The translations under genes were made by a program, and so were the position numbers. The notes under the pieces are model-generated. The model did no database searches, had not been told where the DNA came from, and saw only the letters and a list, made by a program, of their open reading frames with translations. A DNA stretch of 64,000 nt, taken from NCBI GenBank assembly GCA_022647575.1, contig JALCKY010000001.1, positions 896,125 to 960,124 on the forward strand. Reading direction: 5' to 3'. This stretch comes from Lachnospiraceae bacterium. GTDB taxonomy: Bacteria; Bacillota; Clostridia; Lachnospirales; Lachnospiraceae. This document shows, piece after piece, positions 31,612 through 46,023 of this stretch (its first letter is position 1; each line of letters begins with the position of its first letter).

Positions 31612-32796
31612 TCAGTAGTATATGACCTTGACCGGCCGGCCGATTTCTTCAGCCGCTTTCCGGAACTGTTCGACAAGGTTCTGACGGATGTTGAGTTCCA
31701 GCGGCAGGTTCGGATTCTGATAAGCTTCGTTGACTGCCAGTCCCGCATACACGGTCAGATCCGTGCAGTCCTCGATGATCATCTTCGCCACTTCGGAAGC
31801 TCCGTTCTTTTTATCCAGCTCCTTGAAAAAGCTGTCCGAAACCTGCTCCGGATTTTTATAGGCCTTGAGGAGTTTCAGTGCCTGGCTGATGGTCAGGACC
31901 CCTTCCGTCACCAGATCGACACCGTCCATTTCTGCCTCGGGCGGGACATCCGGATCCATGCAGCCGATGGAGGAGACGTCCAGTTTCCTGTTCAGGATTC
32001 TCGCGGCAATCTGGGCGCTGGTGCCTCCGCTGATGACTCTCTTGACTTCCCCGCCGCCGGACATAAAGTCCCGCACCATTCTTTCATCATCCGAAGGATC
32101 CTTGGCCGGCCCCGTCATCACGTGCACGGGCTTCCGGTTAATGATCCGCATGCAGGCAACCGTCGTATCGTCTCCCGGCCTGCAGCCGTAAAGCTCATTG
32201 CAGGCCTCGCATACATTTGCCGCAAGCCGGATGGCGGAAAGCGTCCGCCCGTATTTCTTCAGGGCGTAGGCCGCGATATCCTTCCAGTCCCATCCGAAAT
32301 TCAGGATGCTTCCGACGCCTGCATGGATGGTTCCGTCGCTCATGATGAGGAAGGCATCCCCCGGCTTTGCTTCAAACCGGTATTCGTTGATTCTTTTTCC
32401 GGAAATGATTCTTTCTTTTCTCGGAATGTCCATCAGCTTTCCGTCGCGGATGAAAATGCATCCCGGGTTGTCGTATTCGATGAGGACCGCCTGCCCGCTG
32501 CGGAATACCTGCAGGATGGAAAAAGTCGAATAGGCCACTTTCCTGACGCTGCAGATCGGAAGCGTTGCCATGACTGTCTGCACGCATTCTTCCAGGGTGG
32601 CTCCGTTCCGGAACATCGTGCCGAGAATCTTGCTGGTCAGCGTGGAAAGGATATTCGCCTTGACGCCGCTTCCCATGCCGTCCGCCAGTATGAGGATGTC
32701 TGAATCGTCCGTCTTCAGGATCTCCACTTTGTCTCCGCAGAGTTCTTCCGAGAACTTGTTCAGGCTTTTATACGCCGTGTCGCAGGTTATGCTCAT
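31612..32796 (-). CDS. SpoIIE/PP2C-family serine phosphatase
   Basis: A 394-residue protein whose first ~225 residues form a PP2C-like phosphatase: ILILADGMGSGVKA near residue 36 holds the metal-binding aspartate and glycine motif, FLIMSDGT and PGDDTTVACMRI supply further metal ligands. The C-terminal ~165 residues are not a domain I know. Such phosphatases regularly accompany PAS-containing sensory [FeFe] hydrogenases, where they are thought to relay the H2 signal to a phosphorylated regulator. Its start overlaps the sensory hydrogenase stop by four bases. Confidence 0.87.
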   Translation of the reverse strand: MSITCDTAYKSLNKFSEELCGDKVEILKTDDSDILILADGMGSGVKANILSTLTSKILGTMFRNGATLEECVQTVMATLPICSVRKVAYSTFSILQVFRSGQAVLIEYDNPGCIFIRDGKLMDIPRKERIISGKRINEYRFEAKPGDAFLIMSDGTIHAGVGSILNFGWDWKDIAAYALKKYGRTLSAIRLAANVCEACNELYGCRPGDDTTVACMRIINRKPVHVMTGPAKDPSDDERMVRDFMSGGGEVKRVISGGTSAQIAARILNRKLDVSSIGCMDPDVPPEAEMDGVDLVTEGVLTISQALKLLKAYKNPEQVSDSFFKELDKKNGASEVAKMIIEDCTDLTVYAGLAVNEAYQNPNLPLELNIRQNLVEQFRKAAEEIGRPVKVIYY

Positions 32797-34655
32797 AGCT
32801 CTCCCATCCCGCTTTCATCCCCGCCCATGTCATGGACGATGCTGTTATCGTTATAGGTCGTATCCACTTTCGGCGGCTGCGCGAAATTCCTCAGTTTATC
32901 GCTCTCGCTTTCCTCCGAAAGATTTTCTTTCTTCTCCGGGCCTTCTTTTAAAATGGAGCGGCACATCTTCGTGAGCGTCGTCTTCGTCTCTGCCGTCGTT
33001 TCTCCCAGAAGTCCGGCGATCTGCTGAGCGACCGTCATCTGTTTCTCAATGACCTTCTGGGCCATTTCCGCACTGGCCATCTTCTGCTCATAATCCAGGG
33101 CTGCTTCTTTTTCCTGCTGCGTGATATCCGTGATCGTGAGAAGGACGGCATCCTGCTTCGGAATGTAGACGATGTTCTGCATCGTGCAGATCTGATAATC
33201 CGGATACTCGACTTTGCGTCCCCGGACATCCGCATGCGAATCATAGACATACAGGGCATCGCTCGGGTCGATCAGTTCCACCAGATACATCTTCAGGGCT
33301 TCCGCCCGCGTCTTCCGGAACAGCTTCTCGCTCGCTCTTGAAAACTCGATGATCTTCATTTCCGAATCGACCATGACGACCGCGTTCGGGCTTGTCTCCA
33401 GGACGATGTTGGAAAGCGACTCCGCCCTGGAATGCATGAAGGGAATGCACATCTCCAGTTCCGCCTTATGCTGGAAAACGGCGATTGCCTTGTCCCGGCA
33501 GGTGGAATATCCGCAGGCGCCGCAGTTCAGTTCATCTTCCGGAGACGTCTTGTCCGTCATCCGGAGGATTTCACGGATCTCCGCTTCCGTCGGCATCGCA
33601 TCCCTCACGGAGCGGTCCCCGAACGACTTCAGGAAGGAAATCCCCCTGCCGGCTTTTCTCAGTTCCGCTGCCGGAACCGGCTCCGCCTCGATGGCTTCCT
33701 GCATGTCGATCTTGATCTTATACCGGGAAATTTCGGGATCCTTCATCGCCGGTCCCTTGATGCATCCGCCCGCGCAGATGTTCATTTCGATAAAGCATCT
33801 GTGCAGTTCTCCGCGGATGAGGCTCCGGCACAGCTCCATGCAGTTTTCTTCGCCGGAAACGTAGAACTTCCGGTAGGCATCTTTTTTACCGCGCTGCGAT
33901 GCCATGACCGAAGTGACGATTCCGTTCGTCACCGGATAAAGGCGGTTGACTTTCGGGTTCAGGCTTTCGGACGGAACGTCGCTGCAGCGGCTGATGTCGA
34001 TGCCCTTCTCCTTCAGCCATTCCGTGATGTCGTCGAAGTTGAGCACGTGGGAAATGACCCCGGCGTTTCTTTCGTCCGCTGCTTCTTTCTTCTTCGCGAT
34101 GCAGGGACCCAGGAAAACGACATCGACGTCATCGCCGAGCTCCTTCCTGATGAGAAGTCCGGACGCCACCATCGGCGAAACCACGGGAGCCATGAACGGA
34201 ACAAGCTGCGGATAATATTTTTCAATCAGGTCATTGGCTCCGGGACAGCAGGTCGTGATGATGTTTTCCATCTTTCCTTCCTGCAGCAGCTTTTCATACT
34301 CGGCCGTGACGAAAGCCGCTCCTTCGCTGGTCTCACGGAGATCTTCAAAGCCCAGCTGCTTCAGCGCGCTCCGGATCTGTCCGATCGTGCCGCCTTTCAT
34401 CAGTCCCATGAAGGAAGGCGCCATCGTGACGACGACCCGTCTCCCGCTCCGGATCATTTCCCGGACTTCCGGAAGTTCCGAAGAAAGACTTTTTGCCTTC
34501 TGAGGGCAGACCTTCAGGCATTGTCCGCAGAGGATGCAGTGGTCTTCCATGATTTCGGCCCGTTCGTCCTTGATCTGGATGGCCTTTACAAGGCAGTTCC
34601 GCACGCACTTGTAGCAGTGCTTGCATTTCGTGGATTTGAAGTCGATGATGCTCAT
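32793..34655 (-). CDS. Sensory [FeFe] hydrogenase with PAS domain (group C)
   Basis: A 620-residue protein. Two 4Fe-4S motifs begin it (CKHCYKCVRNC, CILCGQCLKVC). The H-cluster core follows with ITTCCPGANDLI, LGPCIAKKKEA and MNICAGGCIKGP. Near residues 370-400 is an extra cluster domain (NCGACGYSTCRDKA), then a PAS domain (about 410-520, ETSPNAVVMVDSEMKIIEFS), and a helical, acidic C-terminus. This architecture is the group C sensory hydrogenase (HydS). It would report H2 level or redox state to the PP2C phosphatase encoded next. The exact output is unknown. Confidence 0.9.
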   Translation of the reverse strand: MSIIDFKSTKCKHCYKCVRNCLVKAIQIKDERAEIMEDHCILCGQCLKVCPQKAKSLSSELPEVREMIRSGRRVVVTMAPSFMGLMKGGTIGQIRSALKQLGFEDLRETSEGAAFVTAEYEKLLQEGKMENIITTCCPGANDLIEKYYPQLVPFMAPVVSPMVASGLLIRKELGDDVDVVFLGPCIAKKKEAADERNAGVISHVLNFDDITEWLKEKGIDISRCSDVPSESLNPKVNRLYPVTNGIVTSVMASQRGKKDAYRKFYVSGEENCMELCRSLIRGELHRCFIEMNICAGGCIKGPAMKDPEISRYKIKIDMQEAIEAEPVPAAELRKAGRGISFLKSFGDRSVRDAMPTEAEIREILRMTDKTSPEDELNCGACGYSTCRDKAIAVFQHKAELEMCIPFMHSRAESLSNIVLETSPNAVVMVDSEMKIIEFSRASEKLFRKTRAEALKMYLVELIDPSDALYVYDSHADVRGRKVEYPDYQICTMQNIVYIPKQDAVLLTITDITQQEKEAALDYEQKMASAEMAQKVIEKQMTVAQQIAGLLGETTAETKTTLTKMCRSILKEGPEKKENLSEESESDKLRNFAQPPKVDTTYNDNSIVHDMGGDESGMGEL

Positions 34656-36238: not shown

Positions 36239-37042
36239 ATGGCGGATAAACTTATCATTGCTGAGACTGCTGCAGAAGCACTCGAAGCAAAAAACGGCTC
36301 TTCGGCGTTTTTTGCCGGAGGAACGGAAATCGAAAGACTCCATTCTTTCGTCCATGCTGACACTCTCATCCTTCTGAAAAAGATCCCGGGACTGGATACG
36401 ATCGAAGAAAAAGACGGCTGTCTCCGGATCGGTGCCATGTGCACCTTCGAAAAAGCACTGCAGGACGCTCTGGTCCCGGAATACCTGAAGACCGCGCTTT
36501 CCTTCATGGCGTCGCGTACGAAAAGAAATATGGCAACCATAGGCGGAAACATTTCCATCACGCGCTGCGACTCCTATCTGCTGCCGACCCTGATGGCCGC
36601 CGGTGCACGGGTCGAGCTCCTGGAAAAAGCCGGGAAGACGGAAATTGCTGAAATCACAGCCTATGCAGAAAACCGCGATTCCTATGACGATGCCCTGATT
36701 GCAGCCCTGATTCTTCCGTACAGAGACGTCCGCGTGGTTTCCAAACGCTTCGCGAACACGGCGGAAAGCCACGCCTGCCTGACGCTTGCGCTGGGCAATC
36801 CGGCCGGCAGAACCGCCATCGGTGCCGCCGTCAAGAACGCAGGGCTCTTCTCTCTTGAAGAACTGGCCGGCAAAATGGATGCGGCTTCCCTTTCAGAAGA
36901 AGAAATCATGGAATGGTGCCGGTCCTGGTCCGGCGCGGAAATCAAGGATGATATGTTCGGAAGCGCTGCGTACAAGAGATATCTGCTCGGCGTAACGCTG
37001 ACCGATCTGTACAGAACAGTCCGGGGAGGTGACGTGAAATGA
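36239..37042 (+). CDS. Xanthine-dehydrogenase-type FAD subunit
   Basis: A 267-residue FAD-binding subunit of the CoxM/XdhB type. FAD contacts are in FFAGGTEIERLHS near residue 26 and ATIGGNISITRCDSYLLPTLM near 98-118; a CO-dehydrogenase flavoprotein C-terminal domain follows. The start at 36239 has AAGGAGG eight bases upstream; the open frame begins eight codons earlier. Its stop overlaps the large subunit start (GTGAAATGA region), so the two are made together. It should pass electrons from the large subunit to NAD+ or ferredoxin. Confidence 0.86.
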   Translation: MADKLIIAETAAEALEAKNGSSAFFAGGTEIERLHSFVHADTLILLKKIPGLDTIEEKDGCLRIGAMCTFEKALQDALVPEYLKTALSFMASRTKRNMATIGGNISITRCDSYLLPTLMAAGARVELLEKAGKTEIAEITAYAENRDSYDDALIAALILPYRDVRVVSKRFANTAESHACLTLALGNPAGRTAIGAAVKNAGLFSLEELAGKMDAASLSEEEIMEWCRSWSGAEIKDDMFGSAAYKRYLLGVTLTDLYRTVRGGDVK

Positions 37043-39919
37043 AGATCAGCTGCATAATCAACGGAATCAGCAGGGATTTCGATATCGACCCGACGATGCG
37101 TCTTCGCGATCTTCTTGTGAAGAGCGGACATTTCGCAGTCCGTGACAGCGACGATGCGGAAGGCTTCTGCGGAAGCGATACCGTCCTGGTCGACGGCGTG
37201 CCCGTTTTTTCAAACCTGATGATCGCAGCGGAAGCCGACGGCTGTGAGATCCGTACGCCTGACGGCCTCGGAGACTGCACTCATCTTACAATCGTCCAGC
37301 AGGCGATGATCGATGCCGGCGTGGTCCAGAGTGCCTACAATGCTCCGGCTGCCGCCCTCATCCTGACCTGGCTTCTGGAAAACAATCCGGATCCTTCCAA
37401 AGAGGAAATCAAGGATGCCCTCTCCGGAATCTTTATCCGCGACGCCGGATACGAGCATTATTATCTGGCGGTCAAGCTTGCCGTCGAGAAAATGAAGGAC
37501 GGGAAATATGAGACGGAGACAGCTCCTTCTTTCCGTCCGCAGCTGAAGATCATCGGCAAGCCGACCGGCAAGATCGACGGACCGAGTCTGGTGGCCGGCG
37601 AACGGGCCTTCGTGGAAGACTATGTTCCGGAGGATGCCTGCCATCTGGTGGTGCTGCGTTCTCCGCATGCCCATGCCTATATCAAAAGCATCGACACGTC
37701 AGAAGCCGAAAAGGTTCCCGGCGTCATCAGGATCATCACGGCCTTCAACTGCCCGGATATCTACTACATGCAGGCCGGCCAGGGAAATCCGGAACCCTCT
37801 CCCCATGACAGAAGACTCTTCAATATGAAGGTCCGTCACGTCGGCGACCGTGTTGCCGGAGTTGTCGCGGAGACAGAGGAAGAGGCAAAGAAAGCCTGCA
37901 GCCTGATCAAGGTCGAATACGAAGTCCTGAAACCGGTCTTCACGGTTGAGGAAGCCATGGCGGAAGGTGCTCCGCTGGTCCATAACGGAATCGTGGAATA
38001 CCGGGCCGGAGCTCCTGCCGATCTGGACGAGTACAATAAAAAAGCCGGCGATCCGCGTGAAGGCAGGGTCATTTACCAGTTCCCGCTGCACGGGGATATC
38101 CGTCACAACATTGCCGCAGGAAATGCAGGCGGCATCGGCGATGTCGACAAGGCGTTCGCCGAAGCGGATGCCGTCGTTGAACGCACGTATCAGACAAGCC
38201 AGGTCCAGCATACTCCGCTGGAGACGCATGTCTGCTTTGCCCGCATGGAAGGCGGCCGCCTGACGGTCTATGCATCCACGCAGGTCTCCTATCATGTCCG
38301 CCGGATCGTCGGCTGGGTAACCGGCCTTCCGGAAAATAAGATTCACGTCGTCAAGACCCGCGTCGGCGGCGGCTACGGCTCCAAGCAGGATATCCTGATT
38401 GAAGACCTGACCGGCTATGCGGCCTATGTGACCGGACGTCCGGTGTTCTGCCACAACACGCGCGAGGAAGAATTCATCGCCAATTCAACACGTCATCCGA
38501 TGAGGGTGCATGTAAAGATGTCCGGGAAGAAAGACGGCACCATTACCGGCATCTACATGGAAGTCCGCGCCAACACCGGCCCTTACGGAAACCACTGCCT
38601 GACGGTCCCGATGAACAGCTGCTCCAAGACTCTTCCGCTGTTCAAATGCCCGAACATGAAATACGACCTGAAGGTCTACTATACCAATACGCCGCCGGCC
38701 GGAGCTTATCAGGGCTACGGCACGCCGAAGGGCACTTACGGCCTGATGATGGCGATGGCGGAACTGGCTGAAAAGCTCGGCTGCGACTATAAGGACATGG
38801 TTCTCAAGAACCATGTGGAGACAGGCTACCGTCTGGATATCCTCAAGGGACTCGGCGAAGGACGCGAAGGGAAACATCGTCCCGGTCGGTTCCTGCGGCC
38901 TGCGCGAAGCCATCCTGAAGGGCTGCGACATGATCAAATGGGGAGAAAAGGAATCCTCCGATGATCCGGATGTGAAAATCGGCAAGGGCTTTGCCATGAT
39001 CATGCAGGGCAGCGGACTTCCGGGTCTCGACCATGCAGAAGCCATCGCCAAGCTCGAAACAGACGGATCCGTCATCCTGAACAGCGGATGCGCCGACATC
39101 GGGACCGGTCTGGATACAATCTGCGCCAAAGTGGTCAGCGAAACGCTGTGCATGCCGATGGAACGCATTACCGTCCTCTCCGGCGACACCGATGCGGCTG
39201 CTTTTGATACCGGTTCGTACGCTTCTTCCGGAACCTTCTTCAGCGGCAATGCGGCACTCGTCGCATCTCAGAAACTGAAGGAAATGATTCTGGCCGAGGC
39301 TGCGCTGCAGATGGAAGAAGATGCCGCGGATCTTGAGATCTGTGAACCGGGTGCTGTCCGGTCGAAGAAGAGCGGGAAGATTCTCTCCTACTATGAGCTC
39401 TCCCACACGGCCTGCAGCGGCTCCGGACGCGGACAGATGATTGCCCACGGCTCCTTTGTGACCAAGGCTTCCTCCGTTCCCTACGGCGCTCATTTTGCAC
39501 AGGTGGCCGTCAATGTACGCACCGGCGAAATCAAGGTTCAGAAATTCTATGCCCTGCAGGATGCCGGCACGCCGATCAATCCGGAACTGGCCCTGTGCCA
39601 GATGTACGGAGCTTCGCTGAAATCCATCGGCCATTCTCTCTATGAAGGAATGATCCTCGATGAGAACGGCGTATGCGTCAACTCCAACATGACCGACTAC
39701 GGCGTCCCGATGATCACGGAGCAGCCGGATGATTTCAAGGCGGTCCTGATCGATGTCAACGATGACTACGGACCTTTCGGTGCCAAATCGATTTCCGAAA
39801 TTGCCTGCAACGGAGCGGCTCCGGCTATCGGCATTGCCATCCATGATGCCTGCGGCGTCTGGGTGCAGAGCTGGCCGATGACTCCGGAAAAGATCCTGAA
39901 GGGTCTCGGAAAGATCTGA
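37039..39919 (+). pseudogene. Mo-hydroxylase large subunit with cysteine-poor Fe-S domain, one frameshift
   Basis: A fused XdhC/XdhA-type protein. Residues 1-140 align with the [2Fe-2S] domain, but of eight cluster cysteines only C44 remains: QCGYCTPG is QSAYNAPA (97-104) and CRCTGY is IRDAGY (133-138). From about 170 the molybdopterin domain follows (RVGGGYGSKQDI, GAYQGYGTPKG, catalytic Glu in GAKSISEIACNG). The frame breaks in a GGG run at 38869-38871; removing one G restores E-G-N-I-V-P-V-G-S. The break may be a sequencing error, in which case this is an intact gene of about 960 residues. The substrate is unknown; purines or related heterocycles are possible. Confidence 0.82.
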
Positions 39920-40020: not shown

Positions 40021-40851
40021 TCAGCCTTTGACAGCTCCCATCGTAATGCCCTGTGTGAAGTATTTCTGGAAAAGAAGGAATACGATGATGATCGGAACAG
40101 CCGCAAGTGCAGCGCCTGCCATGATCAGGCCGTAATCGGTTGCCATTTCCGCCTGGATCTGGGCGATGCCCAGGGAAATCGTCAGGTTCGTCTTGCTGTT
40201 CAGCATGATCAACTGAAGGAAGTAATCATTCCAGGAGCTGATGAAGGTAAAGATTGCCAGAGCCCCGATTCCGGGCTTGATGATCGGAATGACCACATTC
40301 AGGAACGTCTTCATTTCCCCGGCGCCGTCAATCCTTGCGGCTTCCAGAAGTTCCGTCGGAATGCCTTCAGAGAACTGCTTGATCAGGAAGACGCCGAACG
40401 GCCAGCCGACGGTCGGGAGGATGACCGAGAGCAGCGTATTGTGGATGCCGAGTACGGACATTTCCTTCAGCAATGGGATCAGGATGACCTGCTTGGGCAG
40501 GGCCATCGCACAGACCATCAGGGTGAAAATGAAGTTCCTGCCGATAAATCTTTTCTTTGCCAGGACGTAGCCGGAAAGCGACGCCGTGATGCAGGTCAGG
40601 ACCATTGCGGATACAGCCATGACGACCGTATTGAAAAGCCACCGGAATGCCGGCTGCTGGAAAAGCCTTGCGTAGTTCTCAAGCGTTGCCGCCATCGGGA
40701 ACCAGACCGGCCTGGCCGCATTGATTTCCTGTGCCGTCTTCAGGGATCCCGTGATAATCCAGTAGAGCGGGAAAATAAAGAGCACCGCCAGAACGGCCAG
40801 GATGATGATGGAAACGATATCGTATGCACTTTTCTTCTTTGCTTTTGTCAT
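40021..40851 (-). CDS. Sugar ABC transporter permease (MalG type)
   Basis: A 276-residue permease of the CUT1 family with six hydrophobic helices and the EAA loop ELLEAARIDGAGEMKTFLNVVIPIIKPG near residues 168-195. It pairs with the permease gene 11 bases upstream and the binding protein further upstream. No ATPase gene is present, so a shared MsmK-type ATPase elsewhere probably energises it. Clustering with nan genes points to sialic acid or a sialoside as cargo. Confidence 0.9.
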   Translation of the reverse strand: MTKAKKKSAYDIVSIIILAVLAVLFIFPLYWIITGSLKTAQEINAARPVWFPMAATLENYARLFQQPAFRWLFNTVVMAVSAMVLTCITASLSGYVLAKKRFIGRNFIFTLMVCAMALPKQVILIPLLKEMSVLGIHNTLLSVILPTVGWPFGVFLIKQFSEGIPTELLEAARIDGAGEMKTFLNVVIPIIKPGIGALAIFTFISSWNDYFLQLIMLNSKTNLTISLGIAQIQAEMATDYGLIMAGAALAAVPIIIVFLLFQKYFTQGITMGAVKG

Positions 40852-40862
40852 CGTCTTTCTCC

Positions 40863-41786
40863 TTACCCGTTCCCTGATTTGGCAGCCTTGAACTGGATGG
40901 CCGAGAAAATAGCAATGATGATGGCAAGGATAATGCCCATCGCGTTTCCGTAGCCGAACTGGTCAAGCTTGAATGCCTGATAGTAAATGTAATACATGAT
41001 CGTCTGCGTGGAATTGTTCGGGCCGCCGGAAGTCAGCAGCTGGATCAGTGCGAAGCACTGGAAGCTGTTGATGGTCGTGATGACCAGGATGTACAGCGTC
41101 GTCGGCATGATCTGCGGCCACTTGATTTTCCAGAAGCACTGGAATTTGTTGGCGCCGTCGACTTCTGCTGCTTCCACCAGGCTCTGGTCCACATTTCCCA
41201 GGGCTGAAACATACAGAACGATCGGCTGGCCGATGGAAGTCGTGAAGAGGATCAGGATGATGCACCAGATGGCGAATTTCTCATTTCCCAGCCAGCTGAT
41301 ATTCTGATGGATGACGCCCGTGCTCTTCAGGACATAATTGAAGACGCCTGTATACTGGTTGAACATCCATTTCCAGACCACGGTGACGGCCACTGTTCCG
41401 GTTACGACCGGAAGGTAAAAGATGCAGCGCATGAACGAGGTCCATTTCGCACTCATCTTATAGATGACGGAGCCTACCCAAAGCGAGAAGACAGTGACGA
41501 CCGGCACCGAAATCACGACGATCAGAAGCGTGTTGAGGAGTGCGCGGATGAAGACCGCATCCGAGAACATCTTCACATAATTTGTCAAACCTATAAATTC
41601 AAAGGTCGTCGATGTGTAATTGAAAAAGCTGTTGAAAAGGCAGAGCACCATCGGGACGATCACGAATCCCACGAAAACAATCAGGGTCGGCAGAAGGAAC
41701 ATATACGCCGAAAATGTCTCGCGCCTGACAAGTACTTTGCTTCTTTTTGACACTGCCGCATTGCTGGCCACTGTTCGGAACCTCAC
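40863..41786 (-). CDS. Sugar ABC transporter permease (MalF type)
   Basis: A 307-residue permease with six predicted helices and the EAA loop QSLVEAAEVDGANKFQCFWKI near 200-220. The FMRCIFYLPVVTGTVAVTVVWKWMF segment is typical of the MalF/UgpA side of CUT1 importers. It lies 113 bases after the binding-protein gene, a gap that holds a stable hairpin. Cargo as for the partner permease. Confidence 0.9.
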   Translation of the reverse strand: MRFRTVASNAAVSKRSKVLVRRETFSAYMFLLPTLIVFVGFVIVPMVLCLFNSFFNYTSTTFEFIGLTNYVKMFSDAVFIRALLNTLLIVVISVPVVTVFSLWVGSVIYKMSAKWTSFMRCIFYLPVVTGTVAVTVVWKWMFNQYTGVFNYVLKSTGVIHQNISWLGNEKFAIWCIILILFTTSIGQPIVLYVSALGNVDQSLVEAAEVDGANKFQCFWKIKWPQIMPTTLYILVITTINSFQCFALIQLLTSGGPNNSTQTIMYYIYYQAFKLDQFGYGNAMGIILAIIIAIFSAIQFKAAKSGNG

Positions 41787-41821
41787 TTTCGGATCATTTC
41801 TGTTGAAAAGTTTCCTGCAGG

Positions 41822-41880
41822 AAATGAGTCAGCCCCGCGCTGCTGCAGGTCTCCTGCCCGGACGCAGGGCTGTCTCATTT
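41822..41880 (-). promoter_or_regulatory. Intergenic hairpin between binding protein and permease genes
   Basis: Arms 41822-41835 and 41867-41880 are complementary at 13 of 14 positions, with an inner GCAGG/CCTGC pairing. No T run follows on the minus strand. Such hairpins after a binding-protein gene often protect its mRNA or cut read-through, giving more binding protein than permease; that role is inferred here. Confidence 0.6.
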
Positions 41881-41899
41881 TCAGAATTGCTTTTTAAGA

Positions 41900-43324
41900 T
41901 CAGCCTTTGGCTGCCGCGTTTGCGGTTGTCACAAAGGTATCTGCTGCCGTCTTGACATCCGTTCCGCTGAAGATCGACTGAAGCATGTTCCACCATGCAG
42001 TTCTCTGTGCTGTCCAGCCCGGAGTGACGTTGTAATAATCGCCGAGGTATTTCATGAAGCCGAGATACGTATTCATTCTGGTTTCATCTGCCGTGCCGGC
42101 ATAGACATCGCCGAAGGAAGAACGGACCGGGAAGAAACCTGTTGCCTGAACGGACTTCGGTCCCTGGGTCTTGTCATCGCAGATAAACTGGATGAACTGC
42201 TTTGCAGCTGCAATCTTCGCATCGTCCTTGTTGTTGAAGACACCGAAGCCCCAGATGCCGCCGCAGAGCTGCGGATCGCCGGAATCGGTCGGGAATGCCA
42301 TCGCATACGGCGTGAAGGCAACCTGGCTGGCGTAATTCTTTTCATTGGATGCGTTCCATGCAAGCGTCATGGCGGAAGTTCCGTTTGCGAACAGCTGAAG
42401 TTCATCGGCTGCCTGAATGCCTGCATCGTAGCTTAAGGATCCGTCCTGCGTCATGGTGAGCAGCTGGGAAAGAGCCTTGATGCCCTTGTCTGAGTTGATG
42501 GTATATTCCGTATGATCTGCATTCGTATAGGATGCTCCGTAAAGATTCGTGACCAATGCACGTGTTCCCTGATCGCCGCCCTGGCCTCCGCAGTATACGA
42601 TGCCCGGCGTCGTTACCAGACCGGAATCGCGGACTGCCTGGCAGGCCTTGATGAAGTTCTCTGTCGTCCAGGTACGGTTCTTCTCATCGAGATACTGAAG
42701 CGCGCCTGCTTTTTCAAAGACTTCGTAGTTGATGGCCATGCAGTGTGTCGTCATGCAGAGCGGATACTCGTAATAAGCACCGTCAGAGCTCTTGCAGGCA
42801 TTGACGACGGACTGGGAAGTCGCCGTGATGTCTTTTGTTGCCTCATCCGTCCAGATGTCGGAAAGATCGACCATCTTACCCTTTGCACCCCAGTTGGAGA
42901 CCAGACGTTCCGGTCCTTCCATGATGATGTCCGGAGCTGTTCCTGCTTCAATCGCGGTATTGACTTTGTCATCGCCTGTATCATAGGCAAGGTATTCAAC
43001 TGTGACTGTGATGTTCGGGTATTTCTCATTGAAGGATTTGATGAATCCGTCAACCGTTGCGGAATCCTTGAAATTGCCGATCGGGTAAGTCCAGAGGGTA
43101 ATGGAAGTTGCCTCTGTGGATGTGCTGGCTGCTGTCGATGCTGCCGTCGATGCTGCTTTTGATTCTGCCATCGAAGCTGCTGTTGATACTGCTGCGGACG
43201 CTGCCGCTGAGGATGCCGCTGTCGAAGCGGCTGTGGATGATGATGCTCCGCCGCATCCTGCCATTGAAAGGACCATTCCTCCTGCCAGGACTGCTGCAAG
43301 TACCTTGCCGAAACTCTTTTTCAT
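41900..43324 (-). CDS. Extracellular sugar-binding lipoprotein
   Basis: A 474-residue family 1 solute-binding protein. It has a signal peptide with lipobox LSMAGCGG (cysteine near 24), an Ala/Ser/Thr-rich linker to about residue 72, then the binding fold (SITLWTYPIGNFKDS, YEYPLCMTTHCMAINYEVFEKAG, GIWGFGVFNNKDDA). It would capture the sugar outside the membrane for the two permeases downstream. Context suggests sialic acid, as in SatA-type importers. An unusual purine-rich repeat tract precedes it. Confidence 0.88.
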   Translation of the reverse strand: MKKSFGKVLAAVLAGGMVLSMAGCGGASSSTAASTAASSAAASAAVSTAASMAESKAASTAASTAASTSTEATSITLWTYPIGNFKDSATVDGFIKSFNEKYPNITVTVEYLAYDTGDDKVNTAIEAGTAPDIIMEGPERLVSNWGAKGKMVDLSDIWTDEATKDITATSQSVVNACKSSDGAYYEYPLCMTTHCMAINYEVFEKAGALQYLDEKNRTWTTENFIKACQAVRDSGLVTTPGIVYCGGQGGDQGTRALVTNLYGASYTNADHTEYTINSDKGIKALSQLLTMTQDGSLSYDAGIQAADELQLFANGTSAMTLAWNASNEKNYASQVAFTPYAMAFPTDSGDPQLCGGIWGFGVFNNKDDAKIAAAKQFIQFICDDKTQGPKSVQATGFFPVRSSFGDVYAGTADETRMNTYLGFMKYLGDYYNVTPGWTAQRTAWWNMLQSIFSGTDVKTAADTFVTTANAAAKG

Positions 43325-43344
43325 GTTGCTTCCTCCTTCGTGTT

Positions 43345-43530
43345 CTCCTTTTATAGTTTCTCTTACCTGTTCTTCTGCTGCTTTTTCTTTCTGCTTTCTG
43401 ATGCTTCTTTCTGCTTTTTCGTGCTGTTTCTTACTGCTTCTTCTTCCTGCTGTTTCTTCCTGCTGCTTTTTCTTCTTACTGCTTCTTACTGCTTTTCCCT
43501 GCTGCTTTTCTTACTTCTTCCTGTTCTTCT
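43345..43530 (-). repeat. Purine-rich degenerate repeat tract (AAGCAG type)
   Basis: On the coding (minus) strand this stretch is almost only A and G with AGCAG spaced every 9-20 bases, for example AAGCAGTAAGAAGCAGTAAG. It fills the gap between the kinase and binding-protein genes and enters the last codons of the kinase. It is unlike any flanking sequence and has no promoter or terminator that I can see. Confidence 0.75.
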
Positions 43531-44416
43531 GCCTCAGTTCTCTGACTCTTTTTTCAGCACTTGCTCCCGCGCCGATCATTCCTGCCGCATTTCCGAGAGC
43601 TGCCTGAAGGATTGCTGTATTCTGAAAGCCGCCTGCCAGATAGGGCTTCACGGCTGTCCGAATCCCGTTGAAAACAATTTTCTGTTTCATGATGCCGCCG
43701 CCCAGGATCACTGCGGCCGGATTGAAAATGTGGATGAGGCTGACCAGCCCCGCGGATACTTCGAAAATCCATTCATCGACTGCCTGTCTGACTTCCGGCT
43801 TTTCCAGGTTTTGGAAAATGCTTCTGCCGTCCTTCAGCTCCGGATGCTTTTTCCCGACCTTTTCCGTCAGGGCAGTAACCGATGCATATTTCTCATAGCA
43901 GCCGGAATAGAGAATTCCTTTCTCCATCTTCTCCGGATGCAGGACCATCCCTCCGAATTCTCCTGCGCTCATCGTGCTTCCGGTGTAAAGCCTGCCGTCC
44001 GCCACAATGGCTCCGCCGATGCCTGTTCCGTATGTCAGCATCAGGAAATCCCTGAGTTTTTTTCCCGCGCCGTATTCCGCTTCGCCGAGCGCCGCTGCAT
44101 TGACGTCGTTTTCCACGGCTGTCGGCAGGCCGAATCTTTTTTCAAACACGGCGCGCACGTTTACGCCTGTATAATCCGGAAGGTTCGCATTCGAGAAAAT
44201 GATGCTGCCTTTCTTTCTGTCTACCTGTCCTGCCGTGCTGATGCCGACGGCCCGGAATTCCGGAAGTCCGGAGACTGCCTCCATCGTTCTTTGAAGGACT
44301 GCTCTTCCTCCTTCTTTCGCATTCGTCGGAATTTCATGCATTTCCGTCAGGCTTCCGTTTTCATAAAGCCCGTACTTAATGGCTGTTCCGCCGATATCCG
44401 CTGCCGCAATTTTCAT
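43511..44416 (-). CDS. nanK: ROK-family sugar kinase, probable N-acetylmannosamine kinase
   Basis: A 301-residue ROK kinase: N-terminal ATP site AADIGGTAIKYGLY, GTGIGGAIVADG, and catalytic aspartate in ENDVNAAALGE. In the nan context it should phosphorylate N-acetylmannosamine to ManNAc-6-phosphate. The zinc motif CxCGxxGCxE of most ROK proteins is reduced to LYSGCYE, so two of three cysteines are missing. It overlaps nanE by four bases. Confidence 0.85.
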   Translation of the reverse strand: MKIAAADIGGTAIKYGLYENGSLTEMHEIPTNAKEGGRAVLQRTMEAVSGLPEFRAVGISTAGQVDRKKGSIIFSNANLPDYTGVNVRAVFEKRFGLPTAVENDVNAAALGEAEYGAGKKLRDFLMLTYGTGIGGAIVADGRLYTGSTMSAGEFGGMVLHPEKMEKGILYSGCYEKYASVTALTEKVGKKHPELKDGRSIFQNLEKPEVRQAVDEWIFEVSAGLVSLIHIFNPAAVILGGGIMKQKIVFNGIRTAVKPYLAGGFQNTAILQAALGNAAGMIGAGASAEKRVRELRQKNRKK

Positions 44417-45141
44417 CCGTCTGCCTCCCGGCCTCCGTCCTTCGGTGTCTGGCCGAGTACCGCCATGAATCTTTCGGCAATTTCAAGAGGCCTGGTAATG
44501 GCACCGCCGACAATCACGGCAAACGCTCCGAGCTCCAGCATTTTCCCTGCCTCTTCCGGCGTATGGATTCTTCCTTCCGCAAAAACCGGAATGGAAAGTT
44601 CTTTTGCCAGTCTTTCAACAAGTTCATAATCCGGTCCGTCCAGTTCAGGACTTTCCGGCGTATAGCCGCTCATGGTCGTACTGACGAAATCCACGCCGGC
44701 TTCCATGGCGGTTTTTCCTTCTTCAAAATTCGAAATGTCCGCCAGGAAAAGCTGCTGCGGATATTTTTCCCTGACTTCCCGAAAATACTCTGCCGCGCTT
44801 TTTCCGTCGCCGCGTTTCCGGTCGGTCAGATCCAGTGCGATAATCTCTGCCTTGGCTTCAACCAGGGCATCGACTTCCTTCATGGTCGCCGTGATGTAGG
44901 CTTCGTATCCTTCATAGGCTTTCTTGATGAGCCCGATGACCGGAAGTCCGGTCGCTTCCCGGATGCCGGTTACATCCCTGACGGAATTGGTCCGGATCAT
45001 CGGAGACCCGGCTTTTTTGGCCGCCATGGCCATATACGGCATGAGGGATCTTTCTTCATCATAGAGCGGCTCACCCGGAAGAGCCTGACAGGAAATAATC
45101 AGTTTCCCTTTGATGCTGTCCAGCAGTTCATCCTTGTTCAT
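44413..45141 (-). CDS. nanE: N-acetylmannosamine-6-phosphate 2-epimerase
   Basis: A 242-residue TIM-barrel enzyme that converts ManNAc-6-phosphate to GlcNAc-6-phosphate. The catalytic lysine is in IGLIKKAYEG and the acidic residue in VFAEGRIHTPE; ADISNFEEG and GAFAVIVGGAITRP are family motifs. It lies between the kinase and the regulator genes, giving a complete path from Neu5Ac toward NagA and NagB across the cluster. Confidence 0.93.
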   Translation of the reverse strand: MNKDELLDSIKGKLIISCQALPGEPLYDEERSLMPYMAMAAKKAGSPMIRTNSVRDVTGIREATGLPVIGLIKKAYEGYEAYITATMKEVDALVEAKAEIIALDLTDRKRGDGKSAAEYFREVREKYPQQLFLADISNFEEGKTAMEAGVDFVSTTMSGYTPESPELDGPDYELVERLAKELSIPVFAEGRIHTPEEAGKMLELGAFAVIVGGAITRPLEIAERFMAVLGQTPKDGGREADG

Positions 45142-45165
45142 TTTCGTTCCCTGTCCCCTCTCGAT

Positions 45166-46023
45166 TTACAGCAGCCGCTGTACAACGGATTCCGAAGTCA
45201 GCTTGTTGTTCCTGCTGCAGGCATTAAAGTATCTTCTGTAATATTCCATATAAAGAATGTCTATCAGAAACAGCTGGCTGATTTCCGCCGAGGTCGAACC
45301 GCCCTGCAGCGGTCCTTCATTGGCCCCCGAAAGAAGAATCAGGTCCGCAAAAGCTGTCAGCGGAGATTTCACAAAGCGTGTGATGCAGATGACTTTGGCC
45401 TTGCCTTCCTTCGCATGCTGTGCAATCTCGATGGTATCCTTCGTTGCTCCCGAATAAGAAAAGATCACAGCCGTATCGGTCGGTCCCAGCATGGAAGCTG
45501 CCATCAGCTGCATGTGGAAATCTTCATAGCAGAAGACTTTGGACTCGATGCGCAGGAACTTGTTCATCGCCTTCATCGCTGTCAGGAGACTGGCCCCGAC
45601 TCCGAAGAAATAGATGCGCTGGGCATCGTGCAGCAGGTTAATGGCCCTGTCCATGTCCTTGTAATTCAGCAGGCTGTAGGTTTCATTCAGTGCGGCGATG
45701 TTGGTATTCAGCACTTTCTGGGCAACCGTGGGGAAGTCGTCTTTCAGACCGATATTCCCGGAATACTGTTCCGTTCTTTCCTGTTCGGAATTGTTGAGGC
45801 TCAGGGAAAGCTTCATCTTGAATTCCTGATAGCCTTTCAGGTCCAGCGTCCTGCAGAGACGGAACACGGTCGTATCTCCCACCCCGCAGCTGTCCGCCAG
45901 ATCCGTTATGGACATGAACGGCACGTCCTGCGGATTTTTCAGGATAAAGTCCGCGACCTTCTTTTCGGTCCTTGAAAACTGATTGTACATTGACTTCATG
46001 TTGGTTAAAAAGTCGCCCTGCAT
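45166..46023 (-). CDS. nanR: RpiR/MurR-family transcriptional regulator
   Basis: A 285-residue regulator with an N-terminal HTH (DLADSCGVGDTTVFRLCRTLDLKGY, about 39-63) and a C-terminal SIS domain (about 115-250) that binds phosphosugars. RpiR-type NanR proteins sense ManNAc-6-P or GlcN-6-P and repress nan genes. It is encoded 30 bases after nanA. A GAAA-N4-TTTC repeat at the nanA -35 box is a candidate operator. Confidence 0.88.
   Translation of the reverse strand: MQGDFLTNMKSMYNQFSRTEKKVADFILKNPQDVPFMSITDLADSCGVGDTTVFRLCRTLDLKGYQEFKMKLSLSLNNSEQERTEQYSGNIGLKDDFPTVAQKVLNTNIAALNETYSLLNYKDMDRAINLLHDAQRIYFFGVGASLLTAMKAMNKFLRIESKVFCYEDFHMQLMAASMLGPTDTAVIFSYSGATKDTIEIAQHAKEGKAKVICITRFVKSPLTAFADLILLSGANEGPLQGGSTSAEISQLFLIDILYMEYYRRYFNACSRNNKLTSESVVQRLL

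Follow-up and report, generated by a model that had tools for sequence, protein, structure and literature searches.

How can electrons reach the molybdenum (Mo) of a xanthine oxidase-type enzyme that has lost its iron-sulfur (Fe-S) clusters? In textbook Mo hydroxylases the Mo is wired to flavin adenine dinucleotide (FAD) via two [2Fe-2S] clusters. The question is raised by an xdhD gene, and by the gene of its FAD subunit, in a stretch of 64,000 nucleotides from a Lachnospiraceae bacterium (contig JALCKY010000001.1), here called the window. The encoded XdhD is 51–52% identical to E. coli XdhD, and seven of the eight cluster cysteines are replaced. Judged from the aligned sequences, this loss is maintained and clade-wide in XdhD, and a normal Fe-S relay cannot exist in the protein. 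We suggest that YgfM-XdhD is probably a reductive dehydroxylase of the xanthine oxidase family with a cluster-free, Fe-S-like scaffold, in which electrons reach Mo by another route. The relevant features of the window are the following.

36239–37042, forward strand: ygfM-like FAD subunit (FAD_binding_5, Pfam PF00941, 6.1e-24; TIGR03312, 100.2 bits)
37039–38964, forward strand: first open frame of xdhD, 641 residues, in family register to about residue 610 (TIGR03313, 775 bits, profile positions 3–605 of 951)
37039–37530, forward strand: N-terminal pseudo-[2Fe-2S] domain with the Fer2/Fer2_2 fold and one of eight cluster ligands
37153–37215, forward strand: former cluster site of the plant-ferredoxin-like half, with Asp39 (37153–37155), Cys44 (37168–37170, the only ligand kept), Asp47 (37177–37179) and Asn59 (37213–37215), aligned to C44, C49, C52 and C64 of E. 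coli XdhC
37330–37443, forward strand: former cluster site of the helical half, with Ser98 (37330–37332), Asn101 (37339–37341), Ile133 (37435–37437) and Asp135 (37441–37443), aligned to C103, C106, C140 and C142 of E. coli XdhC
About 38869–38882, forward strand: xdhD frameshift, just 3' of the Gly-Glu-Gly aligned with Glu606 of E. coli XdhD; the TIGR03313 profile switches frame here (605 to 611)
38813–39919, forward strand: second open frame of xdhD, 368 residues, in family register from about 38882 (TIGR03313, 419 bits, profile positions 611–951; Pfam MoCoBD_2, 9.7e-66)

The FAD subunit gene lies directly upstream of xdhD with a 4-base overlap; its frame is open from 36215, and the start at 36239 is our choice. 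After the pseudo-[2Fe-2S] domain the first xdhD frame runs into the hammerhead and the first molybdopterin domain, and the second frame holds the C-terminal molybdopterin domain including the catalytic Glu (GAKSISEI). Over the two frames the full XdhD architecture is therefore present, i.e., Fe-S-like domain, a/b hammerhead, MoCoBD_1, MoCoBD_2 and an adjacent FAD subunit. Both MoCoBD domains and the catalytic Glu place the protein in the xanthine oxidase family, the column of Glu917 being Glu in 82 of 83 XdhD (one gap). Because of the frameshift, the two pieces stay under the curated TIGR03313 cut-off of 1101.9 bits, a score that two whole XdhD genes of the same genus exceed (1214.7 and 1177.9 bits). 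The FAD subunit matches FAD_binding_5 and scores below the cut-off of the YgfM equivalog family TIGR03312 (241.5 bits).

The loss of the cysteines was followed in 84 XdhD, consisting of 80 loci from a scan of genome contigs (the best 80 of 225 confirmed relatives), three genes of the same genus and the window. A ligand cysteine is absent from 71 of them and a single one is kept in 13, so that none has more than one of the eight cysteines of a two-cluster xanthine oxidase. In E. coli K-12 XdhD the ligand columns read D, A, D, S / S, N, S, D and the first 160 residues contain no cysteine. The replacements are nearly invariant at five columns: Asp39 (82/84), Asp47 (84/84), Ser98 (84/84), Asn101 (83/84) and Asp135 (82/84). 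The other three vary, with Ala, Cys or Thr at 44, Ser or Asn at 59 and a mixture at 133. More widely, 16 positions of the N-terminal domain are at least 97% conserved in 83 XdhD and unlike E. coli XdhC, and 11 of these lie at the two former cluster sites (R35, S37, D38, D39, F43, S46, D47, S98, Y100, N101 and D135).

The patterns used in the contig scan, VQ[QK]AM and RDAG, lie inside the changed region, so this census favours cysteine-poor members. Because of this bias a further search was made with the Mo domain alone. Among 42 genomes of the genus XdhD is found in four, each with Cys44 as the sole ligand cysteine, and among sampled genomes of the order (392) and the phylum (398), where the two best candidates per genome were scored, an XdhD-level score occurs only in the window's own genome. 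The three other genes of the genus score 1248–1549 bits, the two window pieces 852 and 637 bits, and anything else at most 655 bits. Cysteine-bearing XdhD may exist in phyla beyond this search. In the collected loci, both ligand motifs are present in 118 of 184 open reading frames (ORFs) similar to XdhC, duplicate copies included; the remaining 66 comprise 64 XdhD, a variant (L038) and a truncated ORF (L168).

Substitute ligands elsewhere in the complex were also considered and rejected. Relocation within the N-terminal domain finds no candidates, as the window protein has cysteines there only at 5, 44, 69 and 80, none of 84 such domains contains a CxxC, and 16 of the 84 have no cysteine at all in their first 160 residues (K-12 was added to this count and L095, duplicated in its Mo part, was left out). 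A new cluster in YgfM is no better founded, with no column above 61% Cys and a CxxC in 3 of 83 sequences. The Mo part of XdhD does have conserved cysteines at 238 (80/83), 398 (78/83) and 619; however, Cys619 as a substitute specific to XdhD falls because 27 of 40 near relatives have it in common.

The fold of the N-terminal domain has been kept. Pfam Fer2_2 matches it at 3e-15, and the first 152 residues match the Fe-S subunit of nicotinate dehydrogenase at 3.1e-23. An AlphaFold2 model of 37039–37530 has a mean predicted local distance difference test (pLDDT) of 87.8, and its best Foldseek match is again the Fe-S subunit of nicotinate dehydrogenase, 3hrd (template modelling (TM) scores 0.85/0.88). 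For XdhD of E. coli strain E69 (L059, 956 residues) the model reaches a pLDDT of 79.6, with residues 40–44 below 50. AlphaFold2 places no cofactors, and both models are silent on what the former cluster sites contain.

The N-terminal domain of XdhD is under purifying selection. Between the window and the three genes of the same genus, the ratio of non-synonymous to synonymous changes per site (pN/pS) is 0.23, 0.25 and 0.35 in this domain; the Mo part gives 0.18, 0.26 and 0.31 ahead of the frameshift and 0.20, 0.27 and 0.26 beyond it. When E. coli K-12 is set against other Enterobacteriaceae sequences (15 comparisons), the ranges are 0.02–0.23 and 0.02–0.16 for the two halves of the domain and 0.01–0.09 for the Mo part. 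These low values show constraint on the domain, weaker than that on its catalytic neighbour. Of 5426 complete E. coli genomes, 5131 have the gene, 5130 of them over 80% or more of its length. In one E. coli strain (NZ_CP119441.1) an IS2 element sits inside xdhD, and one of the resulting pieces, presumably the N-terminal part that in K-12 is free of ligand cysteines, is annotated as a 2Fe-2S cluster-binding protein.

A first-pass annotation, made from the letters of the window alone, had described a maintained loss of seven of eight cysteines in a domain that kept its fold, with the usual path from Mo to FAD broken. The alignment with XdhC, the domain and structure matches, the fixed replacements and the selection bear this out. 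It proposed to follow the loss in homologues of the same fused architecture, and there it proves to be a feature of the clade. Two things that it named as speaking against its view have not turned up: relatives lack the cysteines too, which does not fit errors in this one sequence, and the intact [2Fe-2S] modules found in the genome belong to three other Mo hydroxylases. The frame that it called clean is so within 37039–37460; further on the gene is split, and the annotation had overlooked this frameshift as well as the relationship to E. coli XdhD.

In a tree of 187 Mo domains all 83 XdhD fall in one clade with support 1.0. The tree includes K-12 XdhD but not the duplicate L095 or the split window gene, which is placed by proxy, its first 610 residues being 81% identical to L039 inside the clade. 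The sister group, also with support 1.0, consists of the unfused Mo subunits L141 and L142. These and four further near relatives (of the set L170–L175), six examined in total, adjoin separate Fe-S subunits with all ligands. One of them, L172, is adjoined by a ygfM-like subunit and by ygfK, and has Glu606 and Cys619 in common with XdhD; in this one lineage a cluster-bearing enzyme adjoins a gene of the uric acid pathway. Since cysteine-intact three-subunit enzymes are the nearest relatives examined and XdhD is one clade, XdhD looks, from these sequences, like the descendant of a cluster-bearing three-subunit enzyme that became fused and lost its clusters once. Fusion alone is not sufficient to explain the loss, because the fused 902-residue Mo enzyme in the uric acid cluster of the window's own genome still has both ligand motifs.

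The Mo site has changed as well. Close to the Mo cofactor, the FRG[FY]G loop has its Arg in 104/104 other Mo domains, and Gln stands in its place in 83/83 XdhD; the window also has Gln (AYQGYG), in the column of residue 557 of E. coli XdhD. We take this Arg to be bovine Arg912 rather than Arg880, and only the motif was used here. Glu606, a residue proposed in PMC12507026, is Glu in 83/83 XdhD and belongs in the window to the GEG just before the frameshift. It is not exclusive to XdhD, as 5 of 40 near relatives also have Glu.

The FAD subunit has been retained together with the cluster-free XdhD. In 83 of 84 loci it precedes xdhD, and its best E. coli match is ygfM every time; the remaining locus (L135) is cut by a contig end. 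In the YgfM alignment conservation is 96% or higher at G30/G31 and in the R98-N99/T102/G104-G105 motif.

An activity has been reported for the E. coli enzyme. Li et al. 2025 (PMC12507026) report that E. coli XdhD, purified together with a band near 30 kDa that was regarded as YgfM, gave 2,8-dioxopurine (yanthine) as the major product when supplied with uric acid and reduced nicotinamide adenine dinucleotide (NADH); cultures of an xdhD deletion contained no yanthine. On the model of R. capsulatus XDH, electrons are drawn there as passing from NAD(P)H over the FAD of YgfM to Mo, and a gene cluster containing xdhD was engineered into a probiotic strain against gout. The string "cystein" is absent from the main text of that paper, and the Fe-S mentions found in it concern YgfK. 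A commentary (PMC12990295) gives an AlphaFold3 complex of XdhD and YgfM with an interface predicted TM score of 0.94 and, in its examined text, does not mention the missing clusters. Nor is the cysteine loss noted in the examined text of PMC2997495, PMC3958847, PMC13246756 and PMC7191737; supplements and subscription papers lie outside this search, and the loss may be in print elsewhere.

The geometry makes the difficulty explicit. In Kdh the gaps are 13.5 Å from Mo cofactor to cluster, 13.8 Å between clusters and 10.8 Å from cluster to FAD, in line, with a usual limit of 14 Å for transfer (PMC8305194). If XdhD-YgfM is built in the same way, removal of the clusters would leave Mo and FAD about 38 Å apart along this line, a distance that direct transfer could not span. 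The reported activity would then need an unrecognised electron route, or its donor has been misassigned.

We suggest the following scenario. In the ancestor of the compared XdhD a [2Fe-2S] module would have been fused to the Mo subunit and its cysteines replaced, mostly by Asp, Ser and Asn that then became fixed. The cluster-free domain could serve as a scaffold by which the FAD subunit and the Mo cofactor are kept in position. Electrons would most likely enter through the FAD of YgfM, as its retention and the reported NADH assay suggest, and might then be passed on by some carrier or rearrangement at the conserved Asp/Ser/Asn sites. A carrier at these sites is our leading reading, ahead of another donor or a redox-neutral reaction, because it fits both the retained FAD subunit and the assay. 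More tentatively, it can be proposed that XdhD-YgfM is a working reductase in which electrons pass from NADH and FAD to Mo without Fe-S clusters, either over a new carrier at the Asp/Ser/Asn sites or by a mode of Mo reduction new to the superfamily. For the organism of the window we infer both the electron route and the substrate.

Several observations weigh against this proposal. With FAD and Mo so far beyond 14 Å the retained FAD would seem useless unless there is a new carrier, and no new cofactor motif was recognised in XdhD. The activity rests on one paper, what the present analysis supplies being the loss, its fixation, the selection, the modelled fold and the retention of the FAD subunit; neither a structure nor a metal analysis nor kinetic data for XdhD were found. 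When E. coli is compared with the examined loci of Clostridia and Spirochaetes, YgfM is 23–32% identical and XdhD 51–58%, and this weak conservation of YgfM could reflect a relaxed role. The substrate here is uncertain, because ygfK and ssnA of the window's own genome adjoin a different, cysteine-intact Mo enzyme. The window's own xdhD copy is frameshifted, although the general finding does not depend on this possibly damaged copy, as it is supported by E. coli and by intact relatives.

Among the alternatives, the one that survives best is that XdhD takes its electrons at or near Mo from another protein, an XdhABC-type hydroxylase or a ferredoxin, with YgfM in a structural role. We regard it as possible but unlikely. 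A cysteine-intact XdhC-like ORF is found in the available flank of 37 of 80 loci, several Photobacterium, Shewanella and Spirochaete loci have a trio of XdhA-, XdhC- and XdhB-like genes between ssnA and ygfM, and a curated E. coli interaction links PaoC to XdhD (PMC13246756). However, 43 of 80 loci have no XdhC-like gene in the available flank, some of these flanks being short, the N-terminal domain of XdhD would itself occupy the docking place of an Fe-S subunit, and XdhD and the co-purifying band of about 30 kDa are the only proteins named in the account of the purification in PMC12507026.

The first-pass annotation suggested, besides another electron route, a redox-neutral reaction. XdhD would then be a transhydroxylase in which Mo cycles between VI and IV and oxygen is moved between purines, e.g. 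uric acid and xanthine, which makes the Fe-S relay dispensable; FAD would then be structural. In its favour, all, or all but one, of the ligands are lost, and the Gln in 83/83 XdhD means that the Mo site has changed too. YgfM also outpaces XdhD in divergence by more than XdhB outpaces XdhA in E. coli-type XdhABC loci (38–40% versus 43–47% identity). However, 83 of 84 loci still have the FAD subunit, glycine motifs included, which makes the redox-neutral guess less likely. Two electrons are consumed when uric acid is converted to 2,8-dioxopurine, and the reported assay contained NADH; in the same paper (PMC12507026), an E. coli xdhA deletion with xdhD present did not consume xanthine, in a glucose medium where the cluster may be repressed. 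As the leading idea it is not supported, and we consider it quite unlikely.

A [2Fe-2S] cluster or other metal held by Asp, Ser and Asn ligands is improbable. It would account for replacement residues that are mostly fixed like ligands, but it has to work in the XdhD that have no cysteine in the first 160 residues (16 of 84); we know of no precedent for a [2Fe-2S] cluster that lacks both Cys and His ligands, and Mg or Ca alone could not serve as an electron carrier.

The frameshift itself may be an assembly error or real decay. It sits in a G/A-rich stretch, and whole xdhD genes are present in two genomes of the same genus (G027 and G022), with a third (in G002) cut by a contig end. Two more genes are split in the same assembly, a gltD/ygfT-like gene and, within the uric acid cluster, hyuA, so that 3 of 15 genes with an E. 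coli reference match are affected (window and four own-genome stretches, xdhD counted). Both genes, hyuA at L178:5697-7113 and the gltD/ygfT-like gene at L181:5832-7233 (contig 1), span two frames as xdhD does. A pseudogene or sequencing artefact in which the cysteine loss is part of the decay is hardly credible: the frameshift near 38.87 kb and the other split genes speak for it, but the same loss in all 83 other XdhD refutes decay as the cause, pN/pS is alike on either side of the frameshift and among relatives, and rpoB and rpoC are each a single open frame.

The neighbourhood of xdhD differs between genomes. Either ygfK or ssnA is found in the available flank of 57 of 80 loci. In the window's genome ygfK, ssnA and the cysteine-intact fused Mo enzyme lie together with the split hyuA about 650 kb from xdhD, which thus lacks the ygfK-ssnA adjacency of a uricolytic cluster, and the genome encodes two further cysteine-intact Mo hydroxylases. 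The trio upstream of ygfM-xdhD (L086, L092-L098, L107, L111, L122, L126 and L128) has intact Fe-S ligands and an XdhA-like part 24–27% identical to E. coli XdhA, follows ssnA directly in several loci and constitutes a second Mo enzyme in the same cluster. Further out in the window, 32793–34655 on the reverse strand encodes a 620-residue protein with partial likeness to monomeric [FeFe] hydrogenase (TIGR04105, 205 bits against a cut-off of 450), perhaps a hydrogenase-like sensor. The region 40021–46023, also on the reverse strand, contains a sugar ATP-binding cassette (ABC) permease, an ROK kinase, a probable N-acetylmannosamine-6-phosphate epimerase and a MurR/RpiR-type regulator, and looks like a locus for uptake of amino sugars or sialic acid.

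RefSeq names E. coli XdhD an Fe-S binding subunit, and so a protein common in E. coli is annotated as an Fe-S protein yet, by its sequence, is unable to hold the clusters. If NADH-driven reduction of uric acid is true, the superfamily contains an undescribed electron route; if it is not, the electron donor with which E. coli begins its anaerobic breakdown of uric acid is still to be found. How electrons reach the metal centre is a testable question, in a common E. coli enzyme reported to break down uric acid.

Compared with known systems, the window is closest to E. coli XdhD-YgfM (TIGR03313/TIGR03312), with the same domain order, an adjacent FAD subunit, the replaced ligand columns and equivalents of Glu606 and Gln557. 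However, the window copy differs in its retained Cys44, its frameshift and the lack of an adjacent ygfK-ssnA, and its FAD subunit is 30% identical to E. coli YgfM and below the TIGR03312 cut-off. The intact XdhD of the same genus (L039:9074-11950 and L040:4664-7546, complement) are full-length with the same losses, including the retained Cys44, and unlike the window gene have no frameshift. For the Mo part of E. coli XdhD the nearest solved sequence is 4-hydroxybenzoyl-CoA reductase, 1rm6. This is a reductive dehydroxylase of the same superfamily, with three subunits and an intact [2Fe-2S] gamma subunit. The aldehyde oxidoreductase of Desulfovibrio (1sij/1vlb) has the same fused order of Fe-S and Mo parts, and 1sij is the best Foldseek match of the E. 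coli E69 model (TM 0.78/0.82); it differs in having both clusters and no FAD subunit and in oxidizing aldehydes (PMC10223205, PMC12316806). Finally, three-subunit enzymes of the sister type have Mo subunits 40–42% (L170, L171) and, further out, 37% (L172) identical to XdhD, with equivalents of Glu606 and Cys619; they differ from XdhD in their separate Fe-S subunit with all ligands and in the Arg in place of Gln557.

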